Below, piece after piece: positions 15,354 to 37,069 of a stretch of 47,080 nt of DNA (positions are counted from its first letter, which is position 1; every line of letters starts with the position of its first letter). The stretch comes from an uncultured Desulfosporosinus sp. GTDB lineage: Bacteria; Bacillota; Desulfitobacteriia; Desulfitobacteriales; Desulfitobacteriaceae. The position numbers were made by a program, and so were the translations under genes. Below the pieces are notes generated by a model. That model was given only the letters and a program-made list of their open reading frames with translations, did no database searches and was not told where the DNA came from. Location of the stretch: the NCBI GenBank assembly GCA_927405585.1, contig CAKMJS010000020.1:1-47080 (forward strand), read 5' to 3'.

Positions 15354-15567
15354 GAGAGTTACGTTACAGACGCTCCTCCGTTACGCTCGCAGACCAAACT
15401 AAGGCAAACCTGCTAATGCAAGTGGGCGGGGTTCCGCCAAATTCGACTCCTGTCTCAGTTGGCGCGGGATCCGTCCTTGGATCCCGCCCCGCCGATGAAA
15501 GAGCAGTTTTTCCTAAGTTTGGTTAGCTGCTCACGTAGAGGCATCGCTTACTGTAATCGTAACTCTC
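15354..15567. repeat. Long palindrome, module 1 of element copy A
   Basis: A 214-bp imperfect inverted repeat. The left end GAGAGTTACG (15354-15363) pairs with CGTAACTCTC (15558-15567). Further in, GACCAAACTAAGG (left) pairs with CCTAAGTTTGGTT (right). At the apex is a perfect hairpin GCGGGATCC (15464-15472), loop GTCCTT, GGATCCCGC (15479-15487). Its homologue is the inner palindrome at 36427-36640, which has the same length. It contains no credible gene. Confidence 0.85.
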
Positions 15568-15626
15568 AGGCTTAGATTACGGCCATGAGAAAGGCATTCG
15601 AGAATTCCGCGTCAAACCAACATCAC

Positions 15627-15840
15627 GGGGAGTTTGATTTACAAAAGAGAACGACTTAAGCGAGTAGCTTACCAAACTTCGCGAAAAGCAGGCTGCGGAG
15701 ACGAGTTGGAAACAGGACGTTTCCAACCGGCAACTGAGGCAAGGACGCCGAATTTGCCGGGCACTCGTCGGAGCGGGCGGCTTTGCGCGTTAGTTTGGTC
15801 TACGCAGCTTTCGGAGCGAACGTTGTAAATCAAACTCCCC
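15627..15840. repeat. Long palindrome, module 2 of element copy A
   Basis: A 214-bp inverted repeat with perfect 18-bp ends: GGGGAGTTTGATTTACAA (15627-15644) and its complement at 15823-15840. Inside are the hairpins TTGGAAAC/GTTTCCAA with loop AGGAC (15706-15726) and GGC/GCC with loop AAGGAC (15738-15749), nested in CCGGCAA/TTGCCGG. The homologous module at 36806-37069 has different terminal bases that still pair. Together with module 1 it fills the 530-bp gap between the WbpD-like and WbpB-like genes. Confidence 0.87.
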
Positions 15841-15864
15841 TAGCTCCATATATCCCTAATTTCC

Positions 15865-16911
15865 TTACTCGGAAGGCATAGGAAACACAACGGGCTCCTT
15901 CGTTTCTTGGCATTTATAAATGGCTAAAATAATCTCTAAGGCTTTACGCCCTTCTTCGCCTGGAATCGCTGGTTCCCGGTCTTCTCGAATTGCTTGGATG
16001 AGATCCAATATCAATTCTCTATGTCCAAAGCCGTAGACGTTCGGCGGATCTCCTTCTTGATTGGCGAAGATTTCTCTTTTCTCTTCCTCGCTATCCGGTA
16101 ATTCCCAGACTTCAATTCGGTTAACGGCGATTCCACCGACAATGACTGAGCCTGTTTCCCCGAAAACATTGAGGGTCTCTTCAATGTTAGTCGGATAGAT
16201 GGTTGAGGCTGCTTCGATCAGTCCGATGGCACCGCTTTTGAACTTGATAACAGCTGCGCCCATATCTTCCATTTCGATTTTGCGCATAAAGGTTGCTGTA
16301 TATCCAAAAACAGACTCCACTGGGCCAAAGGTCCACTGTAAAAGGTCAATATTATGAATGGATTGATTCATAAGTACCCCTCCATCATGGAGCTTGGTCC
16401 CGCGCCAAGGTGCTTGAGTATAATAATTATCATTGCGATTCCAGCGTACTGTTGCCTGTCCGTGCGTTAGCTTGCCAAAGCGACCGGCTTCTAAGGCCGT
16501 GCGCAGGAGTTTTACCGAGTCGTTAAAACGGTTTTGATGTATGACGCCTAATTTCACGCCGGCTTTATGGCAAGCAGCAATCATCTCATCCGCTGTTTTT
16601 AAGGTCATGGCCATTGGTTTTTCGACCAAGATATGTTTGCCTGCTTCTGCTGCTGCTATCCCTATTTCAGCATGTATTCCACTCGAAGTGGCAATGGTGA
16701 CGACATCAATGTCGTCTCTCTTTAACATTTCCAAATAATCGGTATAGGGCTCTGCTCCATATTTGTCGGCAAAAGCCTGAGCAAGCTCAGGCACTAAATC
16801 GCACACAGCGACGAGTTCTGCCTCAGGAAGCGCAACAATAGAATCTGCATGTTTCGGGGCAATTCTCCCACACCCAATAATCGCAAACCGGATCTTTTTT
16901 TGTTCACTCAT
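15865..16911 (-). CDS. Gfo/Idh/MocA oxidoreductase, WbpB/WlbA-like
   Basis: A 348-aa NAD(P)-dependent sugar oxidoreductase. The Rossmann motif GCGRIAPKH is at residues 13-21 and the EKP motif (Glu97-Lys98-Pro99) is typical of the Gfo/Idh/MocA fold. The C-terminal half has the substrate region GVLMNQSIHNIDLLQW. In the Wbp/Wlb route this type oxidises C3 of UDP-GlcNAc uronic acid. The gene lies between the UDP-GlcNAc-dehydrogenase-like gene and the acyltransferase/aminotransferase pair, matching that route. The ATG at 16911 is preferred over the TTG at 16917; the ribosome site is weak for both. It is separated from the downstream acyltransferase gene by palindromic element A. Confidence 0.85.
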   Translation of the reverse strand: MSEQKKIRFAIIGCGRIAPKHADSIVALPEAELVAVCDLVPELAQAFADKYGAEPYTDYLEMLKRDDIDVVTIATSSGIHAEIGIAAAEAGKHILVEKPMAMTLKTADEMIAACHKAGVKLGVIHQNRFNDSVKLLRTALEAGRFGKLTHGQATVRWNRNDNYYTQAPWRGTKLHDGGVLMNQSIHNIDLLQWTFGPVESVFGYTATFMRKIEMEDMGAAVIKFKSGAIGLIEAASTIYPTNIEETLNVFGETGSVIVGGIAVNRIEVWELPDSEEEKREIFANQEGDPPNVYGFGHRELILDLIQAIREDREPAIPGEEGRKALEIILAIYKCQETKEPVVFPMPSE

Positions 16912-17008
16912 ATACAACAGCTCTTTTCTTTTTTTGGTATTTTATTTGTGCTTCTTTTTATTGATTCTGTACTATTACTACCTCTGATGGCTAGCCCCTA
17001 TGATATAG

Positions 17009-17040
17009 GTATAAGGGGAATCTGCCGATTCCCCTTATAC
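17009..17040. terminator. Strong hairpin between dehydrogenase and oxidoreductase genes
   Basis: A perfect 14-bp stem, GTATAAGGGGAATC (17009-17022) and GATTCCCCTTATAC (17027-17040), with a four-base loop. On the minus strand it follows the stop of the UDP-sugar dehydrogenase gene. No T-run follows the stem, so it may be a processing or attenuation structure that lowers downstream expression and not a full terminator. Confidence 0.45.
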
Positions 17041-17072
17041 TCGGGTCTGTGATTAAATACTTAAGATAAGTT

Positions 17073-18428
17073 TTAAATTTTAACAATCTTCTCACGATTT
17101 TCTAGGACGTTTTTCGTGGCATTTCGAGTATCTACTACGAGTTGGGCCTTGGCCACAACATGCTGATAATCAACATTACTATGGTCTGTGAGTATCAAGA
17201 CACTATCTGCGTTGGCCAGTAATTCATCGGTCAAAGGCAAGCTCTCTAGGTGAAGGGTACTGCCACCGTGTGGCTCAATCACTGGAATAAAGGGATCATG
17301 ATAGGTGATATTCGCTCCCTGTTTACGCAGGAGTTCTATAATCTTCAAAGCTGGAGATTCTCGCATATCGTCAATGTCTTTTTTGTAAGCTACGCCTAGA
17401 ATGAAGATTTTGGCATCCTTTAAGCTCTTGTTTTCGTTGTTCAGGGCCCGAACGACTTTATTGACGACATAATAGGACACTTCGACATTGATTTCTCCGG
17501 CAAGTTCTATGAAGCGGGTATGAAAATCATACTCTCGAGCTTTCCAGGTAAGGTAGAACGGATCGATGGGTATACAGTGACCCCCTACGCCGGGTCCTGG
17601 GTAAAAGGTTTGGATGCCAAACGGTTTTGTTCCAGCAGCTTCAACCACTTCCCAAATATCGATCCCCATTCGGTCACAGAGCATCATTAATTCGTTGACC
17701 ATAGCGATGTTGACAGCCCGGTAAGTGTTTTCAAAGACTTTGGTCAGCTCCGCTGCGGCTGGCGAGGAGACTGGAACGACATTGGTGATCGTTTGGATAT
17801 AAAGAGCATAGGCAATTTCTAGGCAAACTGGGGTCATCCCTCCAACCACTTTAGACGTATTTTTCGTGCTAAAGCGTTTATTGCCTGGATCAACGCGTTC
17901 TGGAGAGAAAGCAAGGAAGAAGTCCTTACCCACCTTAAGTCCCGCCTTTTCCAATAAAGGAAGAATAACTTCCTCAGTGGTCCCGGGATAAGTCGTGCTT
18001 TCTAAGGTGATTAATTGCCCTGGGCGAAGATACTGTACGATTCGTTCTGTGGATGCTTGGATGTAAGAAATATCTGGGTCACGGGTCACGGTTAAGGGCG
18101 TGGGAACACATATAATGATAACGTCACACTCAGCGAGTTGGGAGAAATCCGTAGTCGCTACCAATAAGCCGTTACTCACTACATTTTGGAGATCTTCATC
18201 TAAAACATCTCCAATGTAGTTGTCTGCTGCATTTACGCGTCCGACCCGTTCAGCATTAATGTCAAACCCAATCACGGGGAATCCAACCTTGCCTTTCTCG
18301 ACGGCTAAAGGGAGTCCTACATACCCTAAACCTATGACCCCAATTTTTGCTTTGTGTTTAAGGATTTTTTCTTTAAGAGCGGCGGCGACAACATCTTCGC
18401 TGGTAATTACGTTCTTAACAGTTATCAT
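17073..18428 (-). CDS. wbpA: UDP-N-acetylglucosamine 6-dehydrogenase, WbpA-like
   Basis: A 451-aa nucleotide-sugar dehydrogenase that oxidises C6 of a UDP-hexose to the uronic acid with two NAD+. The NAD motif GVIGLGYVGLP lies at residues 30-40, the central block is TLESTTYPGTTEEV, and the catalytic Cys285 lies in GPGVGGHCIPIDP, followed by FYLTWKA. This last block is typical of the UDP-GlcNAc/ManNAc group (WbpA/WecC) and less like UDP-glucose dehydrogenases. An about 28-residue N-terminal extension precedes the Rossmann fold. The ATG follows AAGGAGG. With the next three genes it forms a full WbpA-B-D-E set. Activity on UDP-glucose as well cannot be excluded. Confidence 0.87.
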   Translation of the reverse strand: MITVKNVITSEDVVAAALKEKILKHKAKIGVIGLGYVGLPLAVEKGKVGFPVIGFDINAERVGRVNAADNYIGDVLDEDLQNVVSNGLLVATTDFSQLAECDVIIICVPTPLTVTRDPDISYIQASTERIVQYLRPGQLITLESTTYPGTTEEVILPLLEKAGLKVGKDFFLAFSPERVDPGNKRFSTKNTSKVVGGMTPVCLEIAYALYIQTITNVVPVSSPAAAELTKVFENTYRAVNIAMVNELMMLCDRMGIDIWEVVEAAGTKPFGIQTFYPGPGVGGHCIPIDPFYLTWKAREYDFHTRFIELAGEINVEVSYYVVNKVVRALNNENKSLKDAKIFILGVAYKKDIDDMRESPALKIIELLRKQGANITYHDPFIPVIEPHGGSTLHLESLPLTDELLANADSVLILTDHSNVDYQHVVAKAQLVVDTRNATKNVLENREKIVKI

Positions 18429-18498
18429 GTTACGGATTTCCTCCTTATCACTTTCAAGTCCCCCACACTTCTATAAGTAGTGAGTGGGAGTTCACTGA

Positions 18499-20379
18499 TT
18501 AGCTACTGACTACTTTAGCCGCCTTCTTACGGAAAGTAGGGATGACTGTCTGCAATAATTCAATGACTTCATCTCGCGTTAAATAACTGCCTCGCTCTCG
18601 AACAATATGGGTTAGCTCTTCAAGAAGTTTAACGTCAATTACGTTCGGTTTCGCTACGAAAATTCGGCTGTGTTTCGTAGAGGTAATTCCTTCTTCAGCC
18701 GTTAACAATTCTTCAAATAGTTTTTCCCCCGGCCGAATTCCAGTGAATTGTATCTTAATATCAACCTCGGGTTCAAAGCCCGAAAGTCGAATTAAGTCTT
18801 TGGCTAGATCCACAATTTTGACTGGCTTTCCCATATCCAAAATAAAGATTTCTCCACCTTCGGCCATGGCCCCTGCTTGAATGACTAATTGGGCCGCTTC
18901 TGGGATCGTCATAAAATAGCGCACCATATCCGGATGGGTAACCGTTACCGGCCCCCCCTTGGCAATTTGTCGCTTGAACGTTGGGATAACGCTTCCGCTG
19001 CTTCCTAAGACATTTCCAAAGCGAACGGCTACGAACTTAGTTTGTGAAACACGATCTAGGCTTTGAATCAACAGTTCAACTGTTCGTTTGGTTGCTCCCA
19101 TAACGCTCGTTGGGTTAACCGCTTTATCTGTGGAGATCGAGACGAAGGTTTTCACTCTAACCTTATCGGCAGCTTCTGCCAGATTTTGCGAACCAACGAT
19201 ATTGTTTTTAAGGGCTTCTTCAGGATTACGTTCCATTAAAGGGACATGTTTATGCGCTGCGGCATGAAAGACGACGCCTGGCTTATAACGTTCAAAGATT
19301 AATTGTACTTTCTGCCGGTCTTTAATATCCAATATTTCGGTGATATAGTCGATCCCTGGGTGTTCGCCTCGCAACTCCTGTTCGATCCCAAAGATGCTGT
19401 TTTCTCCATGCCCAAGTAAGACGAGTTTTCCAGGATTAAACCGGGCAATTTGTCGGCAAATTTCTGAACCGATAGAGCCACCAGCACCGGTGACAAACAC
19501 CGTCTCACCTGCAACATATCCCGCTACTTCTTCAAGATCAACGCAAACGGGGTCTCTACCTAATAAATCCTCCACTTGAATCTGTCGAATCGGGGTGACA
19601 CTGATGTCTCCGCTAATAATGTCATAAACCCCCGGCATAATCTTAAGATCGACCCCAGACTTTTCACATATTTCCACGATTTCTCGGACAGACTCCCCTG
19701 ATGCAGAAGGCATGGCAATAATGACTTCATCAATATTATGACCGATTACTACGCGGACAATGTCCTTACGCGTACCTAAGACCGGAATGCCAAGGACCTG
19801 TAACTTTAGCTTTGCACTGTCATCGTCAATAAACCCAACCGGGCGACCATCCCGATAATTACGATTCTTTAGTTCTCGAGCTGCCAAGACCCCTGCATCG
19901 CCTGCCCCAACTATAAGCACCTGTTTTTGCGAGCCTGGGATATGGCGATCATAGGTGTTTTCTTGTAAGATCCGCCAAATAAAGCGCGAACCTCCAATTA
20001 AAAAGATCATTGCTAGCCAAAGTAATACCGCGGCAGTATGTGGCATCCTAATATATGTCGAAGGCGTAGGATTAAGAAGCCCATATAGATAAACTACCGC
20101 CACGGTTCCACCTGTCCCCACAGTAACGGCATAGATGATTGAAAGTAACTCCCCCGTACTTGCGTACTGCCAAAGTCGATTGTATAACCCGAAAACTTGA
20201 AAAACTATAATATATAAGATCGTAGCCGCAATGGCTGTTTGATAGTACGTTTGATAATACTCGATCGGTATACCGCCTTCAGAGCGTTCAAAACGCAAAT
20301 AAAAACTGCCGAAAGCTGCCAGGTTGATTAACATAGCATCAATCAGCATTAAAAATAACGTTCGTTTGCGAAATATCAC
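18499..20379 (-). CDS. CapD/WbpM-type UDP-sugar 4,6-dehydratase (membrane-anchored)
   Basis: A 626-aa member of the FlaA1/CapD/WbpM group, which usually converts UDP-GlcNAc to the 4-keto-6-deoxy sugar. Four hydrophobic segments fill residues 1-140. A first Rossmann-like region (VLIVGAGDAGVLAARELKNR) follows, then the catalytic SDR domain with VFVTGAGGSIGSEICRQ. The catalytic site is STDKAVNPTSVMGATKR, where Met replaces the usual Tyr of Y-x3-K. That S-M-K arrangement is characteristic of the large WbpM-type enzymes. The start is GTG behind AGAAGGAG. It is probably the first gene of the polysaccharide operon, since a strong terminator lies upstream at 20564-20606. Confidence 0.88.
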   Translation of the reverse strand: MIFRKRTLFLMLIDAMLINLAAFGSFYLRFERSEGGIPIEYYQTYYQTAIAATILYIIVFQVFGLYNRLWQYASTGELLSIIYAVTVGTGGTVAVVYLYGLLNPTPSTYIRMPHTAAVLLWLAMIFLIGGSRFIWRILQENTYDRHIPGSQKQVLIVGAGDAGVLAARELKNRNYRDGRPVGFIDDDSAKLKLQVLGIPVLGTRKDIVRVVIGHNIDEVIIAMPSASGESVREIVEICEKSGVDLKIMPGVYDIISGDISVTPIRQIQVEDLLGRDPVCVDLEEVAGYVAGETVFVTGAGGSIGSEICRQIARFNPGKLVLLGHGENSIFGIEQELRGEHPGIDYITEILDIKDRQKVQLIFERYKPGVVFHAAAHKHVPLMERNPEEALKNNIVGSQNLAEAADKVRVKTFVSISTDKAVNPTSVMGATKRTVELLIQSLDRVSQTKFVAVRFGNVLGSSGSVIPTFKRQIAKGGPVTVTHPDMVRYFMTIPEAAQLVIQAGAMAEGGEIFILDMGKPVKIVDLAKDLIRLSGFEPEVDIKIQFTGIRPGEKLFEELLTAEEGITSTKHSRIFVAKPNVIDVKLLEELTHIVRERGSYLTRDEVIELLQTVIPTFRKKAAKVVSS

Positions 20380-20563
20380 CTAGTTCAGCTCCTTCTCGAT
20401 AATAACCAGTACGTAAACTTTATCGTTCTAAAGTTTACTACAACTCACTAGGTTTTACAACTCACCAGGGGATCAAGCCTTAACAGTATCTAGCAAATTA
20501 TATAGAACTTATGCTACTTCAGTGTATCTGACATAATTCTATCATACACCCTAGTTTTCTGCA

Positions 20564-20606
20564 CGAAAAAAGGACTACCTTATCATTTACGTCTAACGGT
20601 AGTCCT
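20564..20606 (-). terminator. Rho-independent terminator of the gene at 20614
   Basis: The stem AGGACTACC (20571-20579) / GGTAGTCCT (20598-20606) is followed on the minus strand by a run of six to seven T residues. It lies directly after the stop codon of the anchored protein gene and separates it from the CapD-type gene. Confidence 0.85.
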
Positions 20607-20613
20607 CTGCACA

Positions 20614-21249
20614 TTACTGGATTGAGCTCTCTCCTGTAATCATCCAGCGCGAATTTTGTTTCAATAAATTAACTCGGACCTGTACGATTTGTTCATGTTC
20701 TTCACCGAAGGAAGTCCCATCTGCTAGGCTATAATCTCTTGCCTTGTAACGGTAATCCACTCGCAGTGTGGCTGTGTTTGCGTCGGCGCTTTCCACATCA
20801 ATTTGATCAAAGGTTATTTTTGTAACATCTAAACCAACGCCTTGTGCCAAGAATTCCTCCGCACGTCGGGCATGTCTTTCAAATAGATCTCCGGTATAAG
20901 CTTTAGCTAGCTTGAGACGAAAGGTATTCATATCCGCTGACTTCCACGCCCCGAAAAAGATACCAATACCCTGCTTATAGTCTGCTACGATTTGTTGCTC
21001 TGCCTGATTTAAGATTGAATCAGGATTGGCGCTATACACGGCGACGTTCGTGTCGGAAGGATCATCCACTGCCGTATTAAGGAGTGGGATTTGCGTCCCA
21101 GTGACCGGTTGAACGTTCTCCTGCCCACGCAGTTTAGAGATAAAAGATCCCGTAGAACTTGGATTAGTGAGTAAATACACACCTAGAGTTCCAACGAGCA
21201 CACCAAGACATAAAGCCAAGGCTCCAAAAAGCAAATTCATTTTACGCAT
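20614..21249 (-). CDS. Membrane-anchored protein of unknown function
   Basis: Not recognised. The 211-aa product has one hydrophobic N-terminal helix (MNLLFGALALCLGVLVGTLG) and no lipobox. A Gly/Ser/Pro-rich linker follows, then a globular domain from about residue 70 that is probably outside the membrane. The C-terminal part (LRVDYRYKARDYSLADG, QVRVNLLKQNSRWMITG) has the strand pattern and final W-x-I of SnoaL/NTF2-like domains. That resemblance is tentative. An upstream TTG at 21270 is part of the GAAGGAG ribosome site itself, so the ATG at 21249 is preferred even though spacing is about 12 bases. It is a monocistronic unit ending in a strong terminator, at the head of the polysaccharide cluster. 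Confidence 0.7.
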   Translation of the reverse strand: MRKMNLLFGALALCLGVLVGTLGVYLLTNPSSTGSFISKLRGQENVQPVTGTQIPLLNTAVDDPSDTNVAVYSANPDSILNQAEQQIVADYKQGIGIFFGAWKSADMNTFRLKLAKAYTGDLFERHARRAEEFLAQGVGLDVTKITFDQIDVESADANTATLRVDYRYKARDYSLADGTSFGEEHEQIVQVRVNLLKQNSRWMITGESSIQ

Positions 21250-21339
21250 AAAGAACAAAATCTCCTTCAAACTGGTTTTTATTACTAGCTTGACCAGCGC
21301 GAGAAGATTTTAGACATAGAATTCTCATAACTTGGGAAT

Positions 21340-21620
21340 TAGGCTCTGAGCCTCTGTCCAAGACTTGAACAAGGATAATAGAGCGCTGTCCAAAGCCGGA
21401 CGATTGTCACTGGAGTTATGACTCAACCAGGACGTTCGAGATTAGCCTTACCATGAATGGCTCGATGCCGTGCTGGCAAGGTGTTTACAGCGCAAGGCGC
21501 CATGCTGCTAGAAGGGACCGCCATCATGGAGGTTATCCCCGATGCCGAAGGGGCACGATGCATCGTGCCCCTTCGGGGAAAGCGTAAGGACTGTCCCTGT
21601 GGGGCAGGTCTTGCGCTGAT
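21340..21620. repeat. Structured non-coding stretch, distant relative of the AAGGAC-loop element
   Basis: This part of the 726-bp gene-free stretch 21250-21975 is dense in inverted repeats. AGGACGTTCGAGATTAG (21429-21445) is also present at 138-154 near the window start. A perfect 32-bp palindrome occupies 21545-21576 (CCGAAGGGGCACGATG and its complement). An imperfect 17-bp hairpin lies at 21581-21617 (AGCGTAAGGACTGTCCC versus GGGGCAGGTCTTGCGCT). The remainder, 21650-21960, is AT-rich with nothing I can name; it probably holds the promoter for the minus-strand gene at 20614 and the 3' region of the gene at 21976. Confidence 0.6.
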
Positions 21621-21975
21621 ATTCAGTTTTCACGATGAGCAACACAACAACTAAATTAGTTATTCAACCTTGATACTTACAAGGTTGCACATTGACTTAA
21701 CTTAGTTGCCTATTCATTTATCCAGACCAATGAACCAATAAAATCATTCCTCTAATTATTAATTGTAAAATATATATTAATTCTTGTAAATACATGCTCT
21801 CGGGGCATACCTAAGCATTATTTTTACTCAATGTCTGATTTACTCAAACGTTTAATAAGTACTGAAGCCATCTGCACCTGGGAAATAATTCAGTGTGAAT
21901 ATTAGCGGATATCCTATTCCTACTTAACTTCATTTCATTCCTACTGTCAAAACGTTAGCTCAATGAACTGAATTA

Positions 21976-22725
21976 TTACCGTTTGGTTGCAAACGGCGTC
22001 GCTCCGTAGATTTTTGAGCTTAGGTCATTACGCATAATGTGGGTATCTAAATCATGGATGCCTTGGTGGAACTGTTCAATCCGCGTTTTATCCTTTGAAT
22101 CAAAAGCATCGATTCCGCTGTTCAAAAGCACATCCAGGTAACTGGTGAATGTGACTGCTTTGGAACCATTCGCTTCATTTTTATACTGCTTATCCAAGAG
22201 TGCTTTATGGAACACAATATACTTCTTGATATCCTCCTCGTTCATCTGTGGACCCGCGGCCGGCCCATAGAGATAACCGTCTACGTATTGGTGAATGTTC
22301 CATGCAGTGCCAAAAACTAATGACTTGGCATCATTGCTTAAGGCCACATCACCAAAGAACATCGCAACAGACGGTGCTAGGGCTATCAGTTTATTGTCCG
22401 GTTCCCGATATTTACTCTTAGAAGCTGTGTCTCCTTGTGGAGGTGCAATTGGAGGTGCAGTAATGGTAGTGGTTGGTTGAACAATTACAGATGTCCCGGG
22501 TGGAGCCGTACCATTTGATATGCCATTTGCTCCGTTGATAGTGGCTCCCTTCGCATCAACGGCTGGGGATTGAATGACTATCGAGTCGGTGATGGCGCTT
22601 TGTTGCCTAAAAACCTTCCAGACGCTCGGGCCATAAACCCCTGCAGCAACAACAGCACCGGCCAAAACTAACGTCCCGGCTAAGGTCACAATCCTCTTTT
22701 TGTCCATAGGTATCAGTGGTCTCAT
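21976..22725 (-). CDS. Single-pass membrane-anchored protein of unknown function
   Basis: Not recognised. The 249-aa product has an N-terminal hydrophobic helix (IVTLAGTLVLAGAVVAAGVY) after a short basic start. A Thr/Pro-rich low-complexity linker occupies about residues 75-105 (PGTSVIVQPTTTITAPPIAP), and a helical domain lies from residue 110 to the end. The layout suggests an extracytoplasmic domain tethered by a flexible stalk. No catalytic motif is visible. The start ATG has AAAGGAGG at good spacing. The gene lies between GalU and the structured stretch 21340-21620. Like the protein at 20614 it is a lone anchored protein at the edge of the polysaccharide cluster, but a role there is only a guess. 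Confidence 0.72.
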   Translation of the reverse strand: MRPLIPMDKKRIVTLAGTLVLAGAVVAAGVYGPSVWKVFRQQSAITDSIVIQSPAVDAKGATINGANGISNGTAPPGTSVIVQPTTTITAPPIAPPQGDTASKSKYREPDNKLIALAPSVAMFFGDVALSNDAKSLVFGTAWNIHQYVDGYLYGPAAGPQMNEEDIKKYIVFHKALLDKQYKNEANGSKAVTFTSYLDVLLNSGIDAFDSKDKTRIEQFHQGIHDLDTHIMRNDLSSKIYGATPFATKR

Positions 22726-22925
22726 TGGTCTCTTCCCTCCTTTAATTTTATTTTCATGCTACACAAGCATTCTACCAATTATTAGGAGAAAAGAGTGTCG
22801 TTTTTGCTGTAAAGCTTGGACCATTTTCCGTCCTGTGTTTTCGTGAAATGTCATAAGAACCTGTCTGGTACATAAATTTCGCGAAGATGAAACAGCATGT
22901 CCAAAATATAGTTTGTCTCTCTATC

Positions 22926-29385: not shown

Positions 29386-29428
29386 AAAGGGGATGTGTCG
29401 AAACATAAAGTTTCTCTACATCCCCTTT
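29386..29428. terminator. Bidirectional terminator between convergent genes
   Basis: The stem AAAGGGGATGT (29386-29396) / ACATCCCCTTT (29418-29428) lies between the glutamate-synthase-like gene (plus) and the small sporulation-type gene (minus). The T-run is clearest in the minus direction. Confidence 0.82.
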
Positions 29429-29446
29429 CCGTGTTAGATCTTTTAT

Positions 29447-29572: not shown

Positions 29573-29624
29573 ATTGTCTTACCTCCTTCAAATTTAGGTT
29601 ATTGAACGCGAGCGGCTAAGAGTT

Positions 29625-29735
29625 TTAGAATACGATACCCAATGCAATGAGAAGCAAAATTATTACGACAACAATTGCGATACCAGTCCCTACACCACCG
29701 CAACCAGCTAAACCAGGTCCACCAGCTCCGAGCAT
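29625..29735 (-). CDS. Tiny YjcZ-like sporulation peptide (paralogue)
   Basis: A 36-codon gene: MLGAGGPGLAGCGGVGTG followed by the hydrophobic helix IAIVVVIILLLIALGIVF. It has the same Gly-rich start, length class and terminal helix ending in VF as the product of 29447-29572, so the pair is a tandem duplication. A G-rich ribosome site (AAAGGGGG) precedes the ATG. Probably expressed during sporulation, by family analogy. Confidence 0.8.
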   Translation of the reverse strand: MLGAGGPGLAGCGGVGTGIAIVVVIILLLIALGIVF

Positions 29736-29830
29736 TTTGAATCCCCCTTTCATCGTTTGTACATCATACGCTTAGCTAAAATCATTTGTTCCATAAATTA
29801 CCAAAACTTGTATAATTTTTATCCTATCGT

Positions 29831-29923
29831 GAGACTCCCACTTCTACAAGTGGGAGTGGTACCCCGTGCTCCGCTTCGGTCCCACCGAAGTCTCGATGTT
29901 CAACTTTAGTTGAACGAGTTCAC
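29831..29923. repeat. Short hairpin repeat, IS200/IS605-end-like
   Basis: The hairpin ACTCCCACTT (29834-29843) / AAGTGGGAGT (29848-29857) is followed by a second hairpin near CTTCGGT/ACCGAAG and by the palindromic GTTCAACTTTAGTTGAAC (29898-29915). The first and last parts match the repeat at 26721-26870. Confidence 0.55.
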
Positions 29924-29980
29924 TGGCCAAACTTCTGTCTCTAGCAATTGTCTGGCAGTTTTTTCTCTGTAAAAATTATG

Positions 29981-30018
29981 AGAGTCCATTACCCCTTGCG
30001 TGAGGGATAACGGACTCT
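29981..30018 (-). terminator. Terminator of the amt-PII operon
   Basis: The stem AGAGTCC...GGACTCT, extended by imperfect pairing of ATTACCCCTTG with GAGGGATAAC, lies about 27 bp after the PII gene stop on the minus strand. A T-rich stretch follows (ATAATTTTTA). Confidence 0.75.
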
Positions 30019-30044
30019 CTGCTTATGATATTTTGCCCATAAAC

Positions 30045-30383
30045 TTATAGCGCTTGCTCTCCGGTAGCTCCGGTTCTTATGGTAAAGGCATTTTCAACGG
30101 CGGACACAAAAATCTTTCCGTCTCCAATTTCCCCGGTTCGGGCTTCTGTGGTGATGATCTGGATGATCTCTTCCACGAATTTATCCATAACGATGACTTC
30201 GATCTTCACCTTGGGAATAAGATGGACTGTATACTCCACACCCCGATAGATCTGGGTGTTCCCCTTTTGTTTACCGCACCCGATTACTTGGGTCACTGTC
30301 AAACCGTTGACACCGTGATTGCTCAGCGCATCTTTTACGCTGTCTAGCTTTCCAGGACGGATAATCGCCTCAATTTTCTTCAA
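30045..30383 (-). CDS. glnK: Nitrogen regulatory protein PII
   Basis: A 112-aa PII signal protein. The T-loop is complete (QIYRGVEYTVHLIPK), with Tyr51, the residue uridylylated in enterics. The C-terminal ATP/2-oxoglutarate segment TGEIGDGKIFV is present. It senses nitrogen status and blocks the ammonium transporter when nitrogen is plentiful. It lies 34 bp downstream of amt, the standard amt-glnK pair. The start is TTG, supported by AAAGGAG about 9 bases upstream. Whether Tyr51 is modified in this organism is unknown. Confidence 0.92.
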   Translation of the reverse strand: MKKIEAIIRPGKLDSVKDALSNHGVNGLTVTQVIGCGKQKGNTQIYRGVEYTVHLIPKVKIEVIVMDKFVEEIIQIITTEARTGEIGDGKIFVSAVENAFTIRTGATGEQAL

Positions 30384-30417
30384 ACTAAATCACTCCTTTT
30401 GTCTTTACTCACATAGC

Positions 30418-31647
30418 TCAAACGAATTCCGAATAAGCTCTTTCTCCGTGCAACGATAGATCTAAACCATTTGATTCCTGTTCCTCACTAACGCGAAGTT
30501 TCATGACGAGAGCAATCAGTTTCAAAATAATGAACGTTGCTGCCACGGTAAACATTACCGTGATCCCAACACTCATTGCCTGTATTCCCAAGAGTGATGA
30601 ATTCCCATAGATCAAGCCGTCTGCTCCGGCTGGGTTAATGGACGTGGTGGCAAATATTCCTGTTGCCAAGGCTCCCCAAGTTCCACCAATTCCGTGGCAT
30701 CCAAAAGCGTCCAGGGCATCGTCATAACCGAATTTCGCTTTGATCACGCTAATTGCTAAATAACAAACCGCACCACCAACCAAACCGATTACTATGGAGG
30801 AGAGCGGAGTTACAAAGCCTGCACCAGGGGTAATGGCTACTAATCCGGCCACTGCACCGCTGGCTGCCCCGAGCATGGTGGATTTTCCTCTGTGTAAGCG
30901 CTCCACAACTACCCAGGAAATTGCTGCAGCAGCTGCGGCAGTGTTTGTATTGACAAAGGCCATTGCCGCTAAGCCGTTAGCACCCAAGGAACTACCTGCA
31001 TTAAATCCAAACCAGCCAAACCAGAGAAGACCTGCTCCTAAAACGGTCATCGGCACGTGATGCGGGGCCATGGAGTCTTTACCGAATCCATTACGTTTTC
31101 CAAGTACTAAGGCCGCTATCAAGGCCGAGTAACCCGAACTAATATGCACCACATTCCCTCCTGCAAAGTCCAACGCACCCAGTTCTCTAAGAAAGCCACC
31201 AACACCCCAAACCCAATGGGCCAATGGATCGTAAACAAAGGTCGCCCACAACAGCATGAAGACAATAAAGGCTGGAAAACGCATTCGTTCTGCGATAGAA
31301 CCACTAATTAAAGCGGGAGTGATGACGGCAAACATCATTTGAAATCCCATAAATAGAATTGCGGGTATGGTTCCTGCATAATCAGGGTTGGGCTCCATGC
31401 CAACTCCCTTTAACCCCAGCCAGTCTAAGCCTCCAATTAAACCGTAATGATCTGGCCCAAAGGCCAACGTAAATCCCACCAAAATCCATTGTAAAGACAT
31501 TATACCAATGATTATCCAACTATGCATCAAAGTACTGAGAACATTCTTTTTACGTACCATACCACCATAAAAAAGTGCTAAACCGGGGGTCATGAGAAAA
31601 ACCAGTGCTGTACAAATCATTATAAATCCTGTATCACCTGTATCCAT
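30418..31647 (-). CDS. amt: Ammonium transporter
   Basis: A 409-aa Amt/Rh-family membrane channel for ammonium with eleven predicted helices. Standard blocks are seen: GLALFYGGMVRKKN in the first helix, FDYAGTIP-like and VHISSGYSAL in the centre with the first pore histidine region, and DALDAFGCHGIGGTWGALATG near the C-terminus. The C-terminal cytoplasmic tail LHGERAYSEF is the part that PII-type regulators read. There is no cleavable signal peptide beyond the first helix. The ATG follows GAGGAGG. It is the first gene of a two-gene unit with the PII gene. A long hairpin leader or upstream terminator lies at 31679-31778. Confidence 0.95.
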   Translation of the reverse strand: MDTGDTGFIMICTALVFLMTPGLALFYGGMVRKKNVLSTLMHSWIIIGIMSLQWILVGFTLAFGPDHYGLIGGLDWLGLKGVGMEPNPDYAGTIPAILFMGFQMMFAVITPALISGSIAERMRFPAFIVFMLLWATFVYDPLAHWVWGVGGFLRELGALDFAGGNVVHISSGYSALIAALVLGKRNGFGKDSMAPHHVPMTVLGAGLLWFGWFGFNAGSSLGANGLAAMAFVNTNTAAAAAAISWVVVERLHRGKSTMLGAASGAVAGLVAITPGAGFVTPLSSIVIGLVGGAVCYLAISVIKAKFGYDDALDAFGCHGIGGTWGALATGIFATTSINPAGADGLIYGNSSLLGIQAMSVGITVMFTVAATFIILKLIALVMKLRVSEEQESNGLDLSLHGERAYSEFV

Positions 31648-31678
31648 ATTCTTTCCTCCTCATTTGTGTTACTGCAAA

Positions 31679-31778
31679 CTCGGTTAGCGCCGGCGTTCGC
31701 AAAAAAAATGGCGCTTTGAGCTACTCTTGCGAGTATCCTCAAAGCGCCATTGCTTTGCGAAATATTTTCCTAACCGAG
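31679..31778 (-). terminator. Nested long hairpin upstream of amt (terminator or leader)
   Basis: Three nested arms: CTCGGTTAG (31679-31687) with CTAACCGAG (31770-31778), TTCGCAAA with TTTGCGAA, and ATGGCGCTTTGAG (31708-31720) with its complement (31738-31750). On the minus strand the inner stem is followed by eight T residues, a textbook intrinsic terminator. It could end the DUF445 operon or attenuate amt. Confidence 0.75.
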
Positions 31779-31871
31779 ACTTGTTTCGGCTGTGCACACC
31801 TTATGTTTGAGATTCTAGCAGGATATGTTCTAACATGCAATACTTTTTTCGAATGAATCCTGTATACGTGA

Positions 31872-31912
31872 CGCGATGCGCGATGCGCGATGCACGAAGC
31901 TCGATGCTCGAA
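31872..31912. repeat. Seven-base tandem repeat (GCGATGC-like)
   Basis: About six imperfect units of CGCGATG drifting to CTCGATG/CACGAAG, immediately after the 3' end of the DUF445 gene at 31929. Confidence 0.6.
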
Positions 31913-31928
31913 CCTAGACTTAGTGTTA

Positions 31929-33236
31929 TCATCGGATATAGTTCAATAACGTAGGCACGATCGGGTCATAGACATATTCTAAGAATAAGAACAAGAACAA
32001 CCCAACAATCCCACCGATCATCGATCCATTAATCCGGATCCACTGGAGGTCGTTCCCTGCCTTCTCATCCACAAATCGATTGAGATCCTGATCCGTGTAC
32101 GCAGCTAGGGTCTCCCTAACCATACCACCGATCAGATCATGCTCATTCTGAATCACTTGGCATAGGGTATCCACGAAGAACGCATTGAGCCTTGCCTTAA
32201 ATTCGGAGTTATGCTGTACAAAAAGCCAGTATTTTTCTACAACCGGATAAATCGCACGATACAAGACACTTGGATCCGCTGGAGTAGACGGAGATCTGGC
32301 CACTTTCAGGGCTTCCCCAAGAACTGCTTCCAAAAATCTGCTCAACAAGACATCGTTCAATACGTCGTCTTTCCATTGCTCTATATGAGAGTTAAACCGG
32401 GTATCGAACTCTAATTTTACTACCCTGTTAAGAAGGATATCCTTTAGGCTTATCCGCAAAGGATCTAAGGGATCTCTTAACTTTCGTAAGGTTAAGAGTA
32501 ACTCCACTTGCAAGGCATCGGCGGCTTCGTCGAGGTTTAATCCATCTGACATTTCCACAAATCCCATCAAAGTGCGAAATATTGACCCCCCATTGCTTAC
32601 TTTTTCTTCTTTTAGTTCCTCTAGGTAACTAAGAATAGCGTTGCGGGTTTCCCCATCAGCTGCTTTGTCCCAGAGTCCTTCAGCTAAGCGATCTAGTCCT
32701 TGATCGATATATCCATGTTCTAACGCCCACCCACTGACACCCTGCACCCTTGGCGCTAAGTTCCAGGTCTTCGCCGTACGACGAATAAACATAGCTAGCT
32801 TTTCTGCCAGTTGGACCGGTTCCTGTTTTTCTGCATATCGCCGCAGGTAGGTCAAAATCGTATCCGTTAGGTAAACTGAGCCGCCTACTTTCTCCACCCT
32901 CAGAAGGAGTCCTTCAATAAGTGGAATCCTCTCGATTTTCTTACGTAAAATATTCACGTTCAGCAGCTCTGTTTGAACGATTGTCGCGACAGCTTCGATC
33001 ACCTTTTCGCGGTTTCGAGGGATTAGGGCAGTATGATAGCCCCAACCCAAGGGCTTTCTAAAAATCGCGGTTACCGCAAACCAATCGGCAATTCCCCCTA
33101 CTAAGGCAGCTTCTGAGACAAAAAACAGCAGTCTGATTCCAAAGTGACCTGGGTAGAAATACTTTAACACTGCAGCACCTAAGAAAAAGAGGAAAACTGC
33201 AGCTAGGATAATATTAGCCTTTCTATGATAATTCAT
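31929..33236 (-). CDS. DUF445 membrane protein
   Basis: A 435-aa protein of the DUF445 (YheB-like) family. It has an N-terminal pair of hydrophobic segments around GGIADWFAVTAIFRKPLGWGYHTALIPRNREKV. A long helical domain follows, then the C-terminal family block NDLQWIRINGSMIGGIVGLFLFLF with a last membrane helix. The ADWFAV-alFRrPLG and NDLQ-IRiNGs-vGG motifs are family hallmarks. Biochemical function is unknown. The start overlaps the stop of the upstream paralogue by four bases (ATGA), so they are translationally coupled. Confidence 0.88.
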   Translation of the reverse strand: MNYHRKANIILAAVFLFFLGAAVLKYFYPGHFGIRLLFFVSEAALVGGIADWFAVTAIFRKPLGWGYHTALIPRNREKVIEAVATIVQTELLNVNILRKKIERIPLIEGLLLRVEKVGGSVYLTDTILTYLRRYAEKQEPVQLAEKLAMFIRRTAKTWNLAPRVQGVSGWALEHGYIDQGLDRLAEGLWDKAADGETRNAILSYLEELKEEKVSNGGSIFRTLMGFVEMSDGLNLDEAADALQVELLLTLRKLRDPLDPLRISLKDILLNRVVKLEFDTRFNSHIEQWKDDVLNDVLLSRFLEAVLGEALKVARSPSTPADPSVLYRAIYPVVEKYWLFVQHNSEFKARLNAFFVDTLCQVIQNEHDLIGGMVRETLAAYTDQDLNRFVDEKAGNDLQWIRINGSMIGGIVGLFLFLFLEYVYDPIVPTLLNYIR

Positions 33237-34480
33237 GTTAACACCATCCCTAGCACATAGATCAACATTCCCGCCAGACCTCCAACGACCGAACCGTTAA
33301 TTCGGATCATTTGCAGGTCATTTCCCGCTTTGTCTTCAATTAATCCGACGAGTTTATCATCTGTCAGAGGGTCCAAACCTTCACGAACTAAGCGTCCAAT
33401 GGCATCGTGGTGGAATCCTATTTGTTTTTCAAGGAGAAGCTTGACCGTTTCATCCACTTTCAATCTGAGGGAAGCATTACGCTCTAATACTTCAAGGTAC
33501 TCATCCCAATGGTTAGGCAAATCCTCTATCAAGCGTTCAATAACAGAGGGTGTTTTTTTCGAGCCTGTCCTCGTGAAAGCCATAGTTTCATATTTTGTTG
33601 CTGATTTTATTGGGTTCCTATTGAAGATATCAAGTAAAAACTGATTGACACTTCCTTGAAGCGAGGGTTTTGTCTTAAGTTCTAACACAAAGCGAAGCAG
33701 AGAATCCTTAAGCCATCGCTCAACTGAACCGTCTTCTAGTGCTGTTTTGACCTTATCTTGAAGCCCATGTGCTAGAACAGCGGGTGCTGGAAGAAACTTT
33801 ATGACCATTTTACGCGTGGGATTGCTGTCACCATACCTTATTAGGGCTGCTTCCATCATATTCATTAAGGCAACCTTAACCTCAGGTTGCTCAACATATT
33901 CATTGACTGCCCGGCAAATAACCTTTAAAACCTGATCAACATCTCCATGGTCTAATGAGAATTCGATGACTTCCGCCAGAGTTTGTGAAAGCTTCAAGGT
34001 AGCCAAGTTTTCTTGGAGTAAGCCCTGAAGAATTCGAGTGAATTCTCCTTGCTCCGTATTTCTATCGATATCCTCTGCAAGATTGGTTAGTAAAGTGCTA
34101 ACGGAAAGCTTAACCTCCTGCTTGCCCAAGATTCGAAGGAGCACGCCTGAAAAGTCCCAAGCGGATAATTTGCGCCTGAGTACGTCTTGCGATAGTAATT
34201 CATTCTGAACCATGCCCGCCAAAGCTGCAAAAATCCGCTCTCGGTTCTGTGGAATTATCTCAGTGCGAATTACTTTGCCCGGTCGGATCCCCAACGGACG
34301 ACGAAAAAGCGCTGTCACTGCAAACCAATCAGCTAGCCCCCCGATCATACCCGCGATACATCCACTAGAGATGAGCCCGCCAACAAAACTCGCATGAAAC
34401 GGATAACTGAGCAAAAAACCAAGGGTAATTCCACCTAGAGTGTAGTTAGCCAAGCGAGTATTATTTATAGTTTTCGTCAT
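33233..34480 (-). CDS. DUF445 membrane protein (paralogue)
   Basis: A 415-aa DUF445 protein, sharing with its neighbour the N-terminal block GGLADWFAVTALFRRPLGIRPGKVI and the C-terminal block NDLQMIRINGSVVGGLAGMLIY. The middle is helical and diverged. The two products may form a hetero-oligomer, as suggested by the ATGA overlap. The ATG at 34480 is preferred over the GTG at 34492 because AGGTGG lies 9 bases before it. Function unknown. Confidence 0.87.
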   Translation of the reverse strand: MTKTINNTRLANYTLGGITLGFLLSYPFHASFVGGLISSGCIAGMIGGLADWFAVTALFRRPLGIRPGKVIRTEIIPQNRERIFAALAGMVQNELLSQDVLRRKLSAWDFSGVLLRILGKQEVKLSVSTLLTNLAEDIDRNTEQGEFTRILQGLLQENLATLKLSQTLAEVIEFSLDHGDVDQVLKVICRAVNEYVEQPEVKVALMNMMEAALIRYGDSNPTRKMVIKFLPAPAVLAHGLQDKVKTALEDGSVERWLKDSLLRFVLELKTKPSLQGSVNQFLLDIFNRNPIKSATKYETMAFTRTGSKKTPSVIERLIEDLPNHWDEYLEVLERNASLRLKVDETVKLLLEKQIGFHHDAIGRLVREGLDPLTDDKLVGLIEDKAGNDLQMIRINGSVVGGLAGMLIYVLGMVLT

Positions 34481-34562
34481 AATTTTTTCCACCTACAACC
34501 TTAATTAAATATTCCCATGGATCGCAACACTTTCCCTCCCTATTCTAGTCTATTTTTCGTTC

Positions 34563-35747
34563 CTATACCAGCGAAGCGCTTGTCTTAGCACTTAGCTTCC
34601 TTCCTGCGACTAAAATGATTAACACCAAGAATGCTGATCCCGCGACATAAGGTAATTCCATACTTAATCCAAAAAGTGCTCCGCCTGCCACTGGTCCAAT
34701 AATTCGACCCAAGCTAGCAAAGGACGCAAAAAGTCCGAGAGAAGCTCCCTGTCCAACAGAACTCTGTTTTGTAACGAGACTAGAACTGGTTGGCACCATC
34801 AAGGAATTCCCCACCATGAAAACAACAGTCGATGAAACTAAAGAGGTAATATTTCCATAATTCGCAGATAAAATAATCAAAAGCAGCCCAACAGCGCAAA
34901 GGACTGCTCCGGCCTTAACCAGCAAAGCGTCCCCGAACTTCTTAGCCAATGGACCAATAAGTCCACCTTGAACAATCACAGCAAAAATACCCAAGATGGC
35001 AAAGGTGATTCCCATATCCCTAGGGCCGAAGCCAACTTTAGCAGCTGCCAGCAACGCAAACGTGCTCTCAAACATGGACATCGTAAAATTTAAAACGAAA
35101 TTGAAAGCAAAAAGCGCAAATAAGGGGTGCTTCAATACTTCCAAGGTAAGCTTTGGTCTCTTGCTGACTGTAAGAGCTGGGTTTTGTTGCTTCAAGGATT
35201 CTGGCAGAAAGGCCCAAGTGAACGGTAAAAGCAATAAGGCTAACCCTCCTGCTACAAAGAAGGGCAATGAAAAACTATAGTGACCGAGCCAACCTCCTAT
35301 GGCTGGACCAAAGATCATGCCGAGTCCCATCGCCGCACCTATCATCCCCATTCCTTTCGAACGATCAGCACCTTCCGTAATATCCGATAAATAAGCCATA
35401 GCCGTTGGTAAGGTTGCCGAGGACACTATTCCTGATAAGGCGCGAATCCCGATCAGTAAATAAAGATTATTAACCATTCCAAACATCAGAAACGTTAAGC
35501 CATAGCCACTGAGCCCGATGAGAATAACCGGTCGACGGCCAATACGATCGGACAGTTTACCCCAAAGTGGTGCAAAAAAAAATTGCATAATGGAATAGGC
35601 GGACATAAAAATCCCTAGGGAGAGTGCTCCTCCGCCGAGCTTATCGACAAAAAACGGCAAAATCGGAATGACGATACCAAACCCTACCATGACAAGAAAC
35701 TGTATGATTAGTAAGATCGCCATTGGTCCTATCATTTTCTTTTGCAT
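34563..35747 (-). CDS. MFS drug-exporter-like transporter
   Basis: A 394-aa major facilitator with twelve predicted helices, of the tetracycline/multidrug antiporter (DHA1) group. Motif A is clear (GKLSDRIGRRPVILIG) after helix 2. A motif C-like GPAIGGWLG is seen in helix 5, a mark of antiporters. It probably exports a drug or metabolite using the proton gradient. The ATG follows TAGGAG. A MarR-type regulator gene ends 108 bp upstream on the same strand, and the pair may be co-regulated. The substrate is unknown. Confidence 0.88.
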   Translation of the reverse strand: MQKKMIGPMAILLIIQFLVMVGFGIVIPILPFFVDKLGGGALSLGIFMSAYSIMQFFFAPLWGKLSDRIGRRPVILIGLSGYGLTFLMFGMVNNLYLLIGIRALSGIVSSATLPTAMAYLSDITEGADRSKGMGMIGAAMGLGMIFGPAIGGWLGHYSFSLPFFVAGGLALLLLPFTWAFLPESLKQQNPALTVSKRPKLTLEVLKHPLFALFAFNFVLNFTMSMFESTFALLAAAKVGFGPRDMGITFAILGIFAVIVQGGLIGPLAKKFGDALLVKAGAVLCAVGLLLIILSANYGNITSLVSSTVVFMVGNSLMVPTSSSLVTKQSSVGQGASLGLFASFASLGRIIGPVAGGALFGLSMELPYVAGSAFLVLIILVAGRKLSAKTSASLV

Positions 35748-35759
35748 TTAAAAAACTCC

Positions 35760-35850
35760 TATGTGCCTACATTTTCTATATACATTTCTTTTACATTTCT
35801 ATCTACTTTTCTATATAAATTCTTATTTACTTCTTATTTACATTTATCGA
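35760..35850. repeat. Degenerate simple repeats in gene spacer
   Basis: On the plus strand the spacer is made of decayed units such as TACATTTCTATCTAC and TTCTTATTTAC. It lies between the MarR gene and the MFS gene, on the transcript leading into the exporter. Confidence 0.55.
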
Positions 35851-35855
35851 CATTC

Positions 35856-36311
35856 TTATCTATTCTTATCTGCTGCTAAACCATCTAAAACAGCGTTCAA
35901 TTGTTCTAAGGACCTAATCAAGTCTGCCAATTGATGAGCGTCTAGTTGCTCAGATAAGCGAGCAAACTTTATTTTTCGTGCCTTTTCAAAAGCAGTTAGG
36001 GGTTCCATTCCTAGAGGAGAAAGTTGGATCATAACCACTCGACGGTCTGCCTCGCTACGTGTTCGCGTGATCAGGCCCAATTTATAGAGACGATCTACAA
36101 ATCCAGTCACTGCACCCAACGTGATCCCGAACTGTTGTGCAATTTCAGACGGCGTACAGGTAATGCGACGTTCCAGATACTTTAAGAACATCATTTGATG
36201 CATAGATAAGTCAATGTCTTCTGGCATAAGAAAGCATTGATACTTTTTCCAAACTGCACTAAATAAATGGTCTGTCTCTTCCATGAGAGCAGTGTCTTTT
36301 TCCTTGGTCAT
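35856..36311 (-). CDS. MarR-family transcriptional regulator
   Basis: A 151-aa winged-helix regulator. The recognition-helix region is TPSEIAQQFGITLGAVTGFVDRLYKLGLITR and the wing is RSEADRRVVMIQLSPLG, both typical of MarR. It probably represses the adjacent exporter gene until a ligand binds. The ATG at 36311 has TAGGAGG 7 bases upstream. A longer frame to 36377 would run into palindromic element B and has no ribosome site. No clear operator palindrome was found, because the upstream region is filled by the repeat element. Confidence 0.9.
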   Translation of the reverse strand: MTKEKDTALMEETDHLFSAVWKKYQCFLMPEDIDLSMHQMMFLKYLERRITCTPSEIAQQFGITLGAVTGFVDRLYKLGLITRTRSEADRRVVMIQLSPLGMEPLTAFEKARKIKFARLSEQLDAHQLADLIRSLEQLNAVLDGLAADKNR

Positions 36312-36332
36312 GGGTATTCCTCCTAATGTTGT

Positions 36333-36742
36333 GGAGAGTTGCGTTACAGCCGCTCCGCCCATACGCTCGCAGACCAAACTAAAGGCAAATCTGCTAATGC
36401 ATGTAGGCGGGGTTCCGCCAAATTCAGAAAGCTACGTTACAGACGCTCCACCGTTACGCTCGCAGACCAAACTAAGGCAAACTTGCTAATGCAAGCGGGC
36501 GGGGTTCCGCCAAATTCGACTCCTGTCTCAGTTGGCGCGGGATCCGTCCTTGGATCCCGCCCCGCCATGGAAGAGCAAGTTTGCCTAAGTTTGGTGGGCT
36601 GCTTACGTAGAGGCATCGCTTACTGTAAGCGTAACTCTCTGGTCTAGGATCTGTTAGGTCATCCCGCCATAAAAGAGCAGATCTGCCTAAGTTTGGTTAG
36701 CTGCACACGCAGAGGTATCACTTGAAGTAATCGCAACTCTCC
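36333..36742. repeat. Nested double palindrome, module 1 of element copy B
   Basis: Two palindromes sit one inside the other. Outer arms: GGAGAGTTGCG (36333-36343) with CGCAACTCTCC (36732-36742), and GGCAAATCTGCT (left) with AGCAGATCTGCC (right). Inner palindrome 36427-36640: AAGGCAAACTTGCT (left) pairs with AGCAAGTTTGCCTAAG (right). Its apex hairpin GCGGGATCC, loop GTCCTT, GGATCCCGC lies at 36537-36560. The inner palindrome is the homologue of 15354-15567. It is inserted exactly at the outer palindrome's apex. Confidence 0.85.
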
Positions 36743-36805
36743 GGGCTAAGATTACGGCTTTTTACGAAGCCATGCTTGCAAGTTTCTCGTTCTCATGACC
36801 ATCAC

Positions 36806-37069
36806 GAGGATATTATTTACAAAAGAGATCGACTAAAGCGAGTAGCTTACCAAACTTCGCGAAAAGCAGGCTGCGGAGACGAGTTGGAAACAAGGACGTT
36901 TCCAACCGGCAGCTGAGCCAAGGTCGCCTGCCACCATCCTTGGTTCCGGCGACACTCGGCCGTCCTTGGCCAGCGGATGGCGAATTGCCGGAAACTCGTT
37001 GGAGCGGACGGCTTACGCGTTAGTTTGGTCTACGCAGCTTACGGAGTGAACGTTGTAAATAATATCCCC
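36806..37069. repeat. Long palindrome, module 2 of element copy B
   Basis: The ends are GAGGATATTATTTACAA (36806-36822) and TTGTAAATAATATCCCC (37053-37069). The hairpin TTGGAAAC/GTTTCCAA has loop AAGGAC (36892-36897). It carries extra hairpins not found in copy A: ACC/GGT with loop ATCCTT (36933-36944) and GGCC/GGCC with loop GTCCTT (36958-36971). The terminal bases differ from those of copy A yet remain paired. Confidence 0.87.

Follow-up and report, generated by a model that had tools for sequence, protein, structure and literature searches.

This study concerns a dispersed palindromic element in a 47,080-nucleotide stretch of DNA from an uncultured Desulfosporosinus sp. (GenBank assembly GCA_927405585.1, contig CAKMJS010000020.1, positions 1 to 47,080 of the forward strand; referred to as the window). 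The element is 200 to 300 bases long. Its fold is a long stem with bulges, topped by a three-way junction from which two hairpins, HP1 and HP2, branch off; at the base of the core, CAAACT pairs with AGTTTG, adjoining a small uneven bulge. The tips of HP1 and HP2 have the form CANGGAYG, with N often absent from HP1 (36 CAGGACG and 1 CAGGATG among 77 copies with two motif hits). Within an element, the two loops agree in polarity and read C-ANGGAY-G in HP2 and either C-ANGGAY-G or C-AGGAY-G in HP1. In the window, two modules, one about 210 bases long and the other about 215, are each present twice, plus fragments. These elements are a divergent, repeated Desulfosporosinus form of TwoAYGGAY (Rfam family RF01731).

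Copies were scored with R1, a covariance model made from 49 copies that had been found partly via their loops and arms. The seed therefore favors loops and arms, and later matches come from the whole model. The features of the window are the following.

102 to 247, plus strand: probable remnant of an element at the start of the window, its HP1 at 131-149; R1 15.2 bits, E 0.097; shared GCGTTAGTTTGG arm, repeat family D8
15354 to 15565, minus strand: element, module 1 (TTAGG subfamily), a long bulged stem with two apical hairpins and GGA loops on minus; repeat families D1-D4; from the fold; R1 match 15383-15533 minus, 121.5 bits (copy in the training set)
15445 to 15454, minus strand: HP2 tip of module 1, which reads GAC-AGGA-GTC on minus and retains GGA; from sequence and fold
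15464 to 15487, minus strand: HP1 of module 1, loop AAGGAC on minus
15628 to 15844, plus strand: element, module 2 (TTCGCG subfamily), GGA loops on plus; from the fold; R1 match 15661-15809 plus, 114.3 bits (training copy)
15705 to 15727, plus strand: HP1 of module 2, loop AGGAC with a C-G closing pair
15738 to 15749, plus strand: HP2 tip of module 2, GGC-AAGGAC-GCC; from sequence and fold
36333 to 36425, minus strand: fragment of a further TTAGG-type module; BLAST 90% identity over 93 bases; R1 15.6 bits, E 0.077
36426 to 36645, minus strand: second copy of module 1; R1 match 36456-36605 minus, 118.4 bits (training copy); 96% identity to the first copy over 140 bases
36662 to 36749, minus strand: fragment, module 1-type half; repeat family D1, 77%
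36795 to 37080, plus strand: second copy of module 2, its HP2 interrupted by an insert; from the fold; R1 match 36839-37039 plus, 83.2 bits (non-training copy)
36924 to 36976, minus strand: nested mini-element of about 53 bases in the HP2 loop (AAGG^AT), with two hairpins of its own and GGA loops on minus

At 21413-21445, the stretch ACCAGGACGTTCGAGATTAG is similar to the remnant near the window start (85% over 33 bases).

Loops and stems of the element

The first-pass annotation of this DNA had reported eight hairpins with unrelated stems and a common loop, AAGGAC or its complement. All eight loops lie where they were reported, with the reported stems beside them (on the plus strand, GTCCTT at 15473-15478, 36546-36551, and 36962-36967; AAGGAC at 15741-15746 and 36892-36897; AGGAC at 138-142 and 15714-15718; ATCCTT at 36936-36941). 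Those that start at 15473, 15714, 15741, 36546, and 36892 are the loops of the elements at 15354-15565, 15628-15844, 36426-36645, and 36795-37080, and the one at 138 belongs to the weak remnant where the window begins. Those at 36936 and 36962 fall inside the insert in the second hairpin of the last element and are there because the nested mini-element carries its own minus-strand GGA hairpins. It had further been asked whether each copy holds one loop of each polarity. This is not the case: both loops of one element share their polarity and cannot pair together, and the mixed polarities in the window arise because two elements stand back to back and an insert is nested in one loop.

Loops of the GGA type are above chance in the hairpins of the window. 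Perfect hairpin registers (stem of at least 6, loop of 4 to 8) were counted across the window, and 60 first-order Markov simulations were counted alike; a GGA-type loop or its complement was present in 11 of the 88 registers, against a mean of 0.7 and a maximum of 4 in the simulations. The 11 registers correspond to 6 separate places, 5 of them counted twice, with 4 places in elements, 1 in the remnant, and 1 elsewhere (6311-6328, outside any element).

Across copies, the loops are nearly invariant and the stems are variable and covarying. The 49-copy alignment has 29 consensus pairs, at 18 of which both sides have changed in at least one copy. The best 150 of 166 R1 matches come down to 108 distinct copies, of which 96 have no insertion. 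In these 96, the GGA of HP1 is kept at 94/96, 95/96, and 96/96, and the HP2 loop has C in 94/94, A in 94/94, G in 85/85, G in 95/96, and A in 85/96, with a mixed N position (A 51, G 15, C 14, T 5). The loop-closing C-G pair is nearly invariant in both hairpins (93/95 and 96/96 in HP1; 94/94 and 94/94 in HP2), and the middle pair of HP2 is mostly A-T, C-G, G-C, or T-A. Hence the claim that the loop is more conserved than the stem is borne out, with many stem columns being variable, and other copies do not show random loops but keep GGA. Among the 108 distinct copies, the loop motif was hit twice in 77, once in 25, three times in 3, and not at all in 3.

Distribution across genomes

The genome that contains the window (G000) has 59 R1 matches. 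The element was found in 28 of the 29 genomes of the genus, the exception being G015, and in 36 of the 82 genomes of the class search, made up of these 28, 8 of 16 from other genera of the family, and none of the 37 from outside the family, one of which (G033) has a single 38-base BLAST match. In a sample of the phylum, 66 of 398 genomes matched, 6 of them in the family of the window's genome; this number is a lower bound because stricter filters were applied and 7 candidates were scored per genome. The distant copies have the same fold. In the set viral_contigs, one exact pattern had no match, which is weak evidence against a phage source.

Position along the deposited chromosome is uneven in three genomes (G003, G006, and G008): the 24 copies listed for them (2 of 2, 8 of 9, and 14 of 16 matches) all have coordinates in its second half, and 20 of the 24 are on the plus strand; in G048, unlike in these three, the listed copies are spread throughout the deposited coordinates.

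Relation to TwoAYGGAY and CsrA

Nine sibling copies within the genus reach RF01731 itself, with 43.4 to 50.3 bits at a gathering score of 43: four in L207 and L209 (43.4 to 48.9 bits) and five in L183, L184, and L177 (45.0 to 50.3 bits). Below that threshold are four further copies from the genus (41.8 to 42.9 bits; L185 and L190) and one from outside it (39.2 bits; L245). The clan label of RF01731, CL00106, is also that of CsrB (RF00018), as checked with csrB of E. coli. TwoAYGGAY is rated in a table row as a probable RNA that is not cis-regulatory (PMC2864571), and a later passage predicts that TwoAYGGAY RNAs bind CsrA, mentions tandem G-A pairs, and describes validation as then in progress (PMC4333381). 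The idea of CsrA binding is, therefore, already published; a divergent subfamily and repeat-like behavior were not found in the literature passages searched.

The loops of the element fit this idea. An excerpt of PMC7652899 gives the CsrA consensus as RUACARGGAUGU, mostly in a hexaloop with AC and GU paired, and that of RsmE as ANGGAN, and the loops of both HP1 and HP2 are close to the published CsrA consensus. Tandem G-A pairs were seen by eye as TGAG/CGAA in HP2 of module 2 in the window and as CGAG/CGAG in distant copies, and were not seen in the GGCTTTAA subfamily; as noted by eye in several subfamilies, they point to the GGA strand. The element and csrA also tend to occur together. A match to csrA (PF02599) was obtained in 285 of the 398 genomes of the phylum sample, 281 of them over the curated cut-off, and in 62 of 66 carriers of the element versus 223 of 332 other genomes (Fisher p 2e-6, cross-tabulated by hand and ignoring the relatedness of the genomes). 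For genomes with a completeness of 90% or more and a contamination of 5% or less, the numbers are 58 of 60 and 208 of 296. The genome that contains the window has csrA; in the carrier G082, the match is weak (8.4e-5).

We therefore favor, with a probability of about 0.5, a reading in which the element is a dispersed palindromic variant of TwoAYGGAY whose paired loops bind CsrA in transcripts and which spreads as a palindromic repeat. It builds on what was observed: the architecture, the covarying stems, the nearly invariant GGA loops, the relation to the family, the number of copies, and the copies that are polymorphic or nested. When the GGA strand is transcribed, its two loops would bind the two faces of one CsrA dimer, and the bound dimer would be held back from mRNAs. 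The loop would be conserved because CsrA reads the A and the GGA and tolerates any base at N. The copies, as mobile palindromes, would disperse and insert between genes, in many cases directly after a stop codon.

RNA or DNA

A number of observations weigh against this reading. First, Rfam had no match in the window at the gathering threshold and none at E values up to 1 in 15300-15900; the second locus of the window was searched at gathering only, and seven further loci had no match at gathering either. Second, SELEX ligands of CsrA mostly have short stems according to the same excerpt (PMC7652899), unlike the long stems of the element. Third, neither locus of the window has a promoter-like site, looked for as the sigma-70 type only, or a terminator-like site; shuffled loci give 0.6 to 0.8 by chance. 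Fourth, in 65 of the 95 copies with enough flank, the gene on the side of the TCC strand ends toward the element, and the GGA strand is antisense to it (binomial p 0.0004, which ignores shared ancestry).

Fifth, G-U pairs are rare. In alignments made alike, the consensus pairs of five groups of the element have 0.5 to 3.9% G-U and 0.5 to 1.4% A-C, compared to 11.1% and 0.29% in RNase P RNA from 24 sequences of the genus. On the complement strand, G-U pairs amount to 2.2 to 7.8% in the elements, which is above the GGA strand, and to 9.9% in RNase P; since the complement of RNase P is that rich in G-U as well, the comparison does not tell the strand. It is this alignment-based comparison only that separates RNase P from the elements: a first count of G-U to A-C (69:59) mostly reflected unpaired columns, a count of single mismatches with paired bases on both sides gave 12:6 next to 152 other mismatches, and a folding test with G-U disallowed gave 31:19 for the elements and 37:35 for the RNase P control, which thereby failed. 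The low G-U content leans toward a constraint or templated correction at the level of DNA, and an RNA is also compatible with it.

Last, the association with csrA takes no account of how the genomes are related, and seven carriers, with 1 to 3 matches to the element each, have no match to csrA. Four are from the phylum sample (G215, 94% complete; G309, 75%; G332, 63%; G383, 97%) and keep GGA in both loops. Three are from the genus (G004, 79%; G012, 67%; G023, 94%); the copies in G004 and G012 have kept their GGA loops, which again weighs on this side, or have them split by inserts, and the single copy of G023 has lost GGA from both loops, which speaks in favor of CsrA binding. A rule by which GGA is lost where csrA is missing fits G023 and was dropped because G215 and G383 keep both loops.

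In sum, the scarcity of G-U pairs, the lack of a promoter-like site, the many matches per genome (up to 59, in both orientations), the nesting, and the antisense position of the GGA strand argue against a simple sponge RNA.

Mobility and nested inserts

Some of these observations also suit the strongest of the other explanations, a mobile DNA element without any role as RNA or in CsrA binding. A recombinase or transposase would read the loops and the bulged stem as single-stranded DNA, with the GGA loop as its contact site and preferred landing site. Stems that are nearly all Watson-Crick, and carriers as complete as G215 and G383 that keep their GGA loops with no csrA match, are in line with it, and so are the signs of mobility. 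One copy in G006 is absent from the same site in the close relative G010 and has a short direct repeat on both flanks (by eye). In G005, a second unit begins inside the HP2 tip of the first (by eye). There are also tandem arrays, such as the three 300-base units of G007, and copies are found in both orientations.

The inserts also fit such an element. Five regions of the 108 distinct copies were examined for inserts of at least 20 bases, which were present in 10 copies and always in a hairpin loop (6 in HP2, 4 in HP1). Eight of the 10 are one mini-element of 54 to 55 aligned bases in one orientation that splits the loop after AGG; two of these eight (L032 and L033) probably go back to one event at one locus. 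Outside this count, the mini-element at L036 1873-2054 is flanked by the left half of HP1 on one side and the right half of HP2 on the other, and two copies in G004 have it in both loops. On the other hand, two lower-scoring copies outside the 108 (L028, and L061 near 1355) have an insert behind HP2 and not in a loop. A candidate enzyme, the Y1 transposase (PF01797), had no match in the carriers G003, G049, and G051 (2, 16, and 26 elements) and matches in 12 of the 16 genomes searched, and mobilization by Y1 (RAYT) was rejected on account of these three carriers. Moreover, the free N in the loop and the association with csrA have no ready reason under a DNA element, and we regard this explanation as somewhat unlikely. 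Integron attC sites were considered for the GTTAG-like arm and dropped, as no cassette array was seen around the copies read; integrases were not searched for.

Three further kinds of inserted or adjoining sequence were seen. A second nested mini-element of about 68 bases (CACGAWAGYCTCC...AAGG) lies inside or adjoins apical hairpins at L025 1368-1586, L028 466-682, L061 1355-1571, and window 45-115, in two versions that differ by matching changes on both arms (by eye). A third insert type of about 41 bases with GAAGACACTGTCTTC is located in the HP2 loop at L038 1535-1717 and at L261 (G013 and G012). Some copies are preceded by an additional conserved block, CCGTTTCCC..GGGGAACGAACGAT, which is found again nearby (G006 L110, about 5230-5400; G005 L200).

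Mobility and CsrA binding may also be combined on a wider scale. TwoAYGGAY as a whole would then be no single-locus small RNA but a family of mobile palindromes across the Firmicutes whose members came to lie after stop codons and inside one another's GGA loops, and the scattered copies together would tune free CsrA. For the time being, we consider this a speculative and improbable extension.

Placement relative to genes

The genes around the copies were taken as the longest open reading frames (ORFs), not from a gene finder, and the placement counts are not all independent because some sites are orthologous. None of the 95 copies overlaps an ORF of more than 250 codons. In 22 of the 65 copies that are faced by a gene end on the TCC side, the stop codon is 0 to 5 bases away from the end of the element (16 TAG, 4 TAA, and 2 TGA, by eye), and 6 more of the 28 rows listed have the stop inside the element.

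One intergenic comparison site has flanking genes that we take to be radical-SAM-associated and ribonuclease G-like. At this operon-internal site, the loop motif was hit in 16 of 24 Desulfosporosinus loci, in 4 of which the far gene was not reached (L158, L164, L167, and L168). The remaining loci comprise four spaces of 519 to 709 bases without a motif hit (L159, L160, L161, and L163) and four short ones of 0 to 85 bases (L156, L165, L166, and L173).

Both the facing stop codons and the operon-internal site would suit an element of mRNA 3' ends, in which the strand with the TCC loops, following the stop, stabilizes the message or damps transcription into the next gene. However, 30 of the 95 copies are oriented the other way, a T-run terminator is missing, and the conserved loops and tandem G-A pairs make sense on the opposite strand, which renders such a role unlikely.

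Pairing of modules

Six-base kissing contacts between module 1 and module 2 had been proposed in the first-pass annotation. Pairs of modules were counted in seven genomes, for which 150 of 173 matches were listed. Among the listed elements, 11 of the 13 close pairs are minus-then-plus, that is, back to back with complementary loops as at both loci of the window; 2 are plus-plus and none is plus-then-minus. A transcript through back-to-back modules would carry complementary loops, and kissing is possible there. However, for 126 of the 150 listed elements, the list has no second one within 1 kb, and at the 15.4-15.8 kb locus of the window, of seven relatives with the same two flanking genes, five have both modules and two (L035 and L039) have one module alone. 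Since single copies prevail and the loops of one element have the same polarity, and with the identity of the loops explained otherwise, kissing is rejected as a general function and has very little probability; it is not needed for the binding of CsrA.

Comparison with known systems

TwoAYGGAY has been catalogued since 2010 and predicted to bind CsrA, and passages from three of the papers that name it report no test of this. If the element is a mobile repeat with CsrA sites in its loops, CsrA would have a titrating RNA outside the Gammaproteobacteria, and a repeat family would have been recruited into a global regulatory circuit. If scattered copies together tune CsrA, a transposable repeat would have turned into the sponge of a global regulator, with CsrA as its host partner. 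If, instead, the loops serve a DNA recombinase, an Rfam family would need to be read as a DNA element.

The element shares with TwoAYGGAY (RF01731) the two adjacent hairpins with GGA loops on one strand and the outer stem, and sibling copies match the model. It differs in that the copies of the window score below the model and belong to divergent subfamilies with the conserved CAAACT/AGTTTG stem, and in that elements of this type occur many times per genome, in inverted pairs, and with nested inserts. Like the small RNAs CsrB, CsrC, and RsmX/Y/Z, it presents ANGGA loops in hairpins, and its family has the clan label in common with RF00018. Unlike them, it has two sites instead of many, is a dispersed repeat instead of one gene, and has no promoter or terminator seen.

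With kissing-loop RNAs, the element has in common that complementary loops lie on one strand where two modules stand back to back, whereas the listed copies are mostly single and the polarity is the same for both loops of an element. Repetitive extragenic palindromes (REPs) are described in an excerpt of PMC3733652 as 20 to 40 bp long and marked at one end by a tag, for example GTAG or CGTC. As with REP/BIME sequences and their RAYT transposases, the element is intergenic and palindromic and is found in both orientations, in back-to-back pairs, and in many copies; in contrast to them, it is 200 to 300 bases long, has a three-way junction, and is present in three carriers with no match to Y1.

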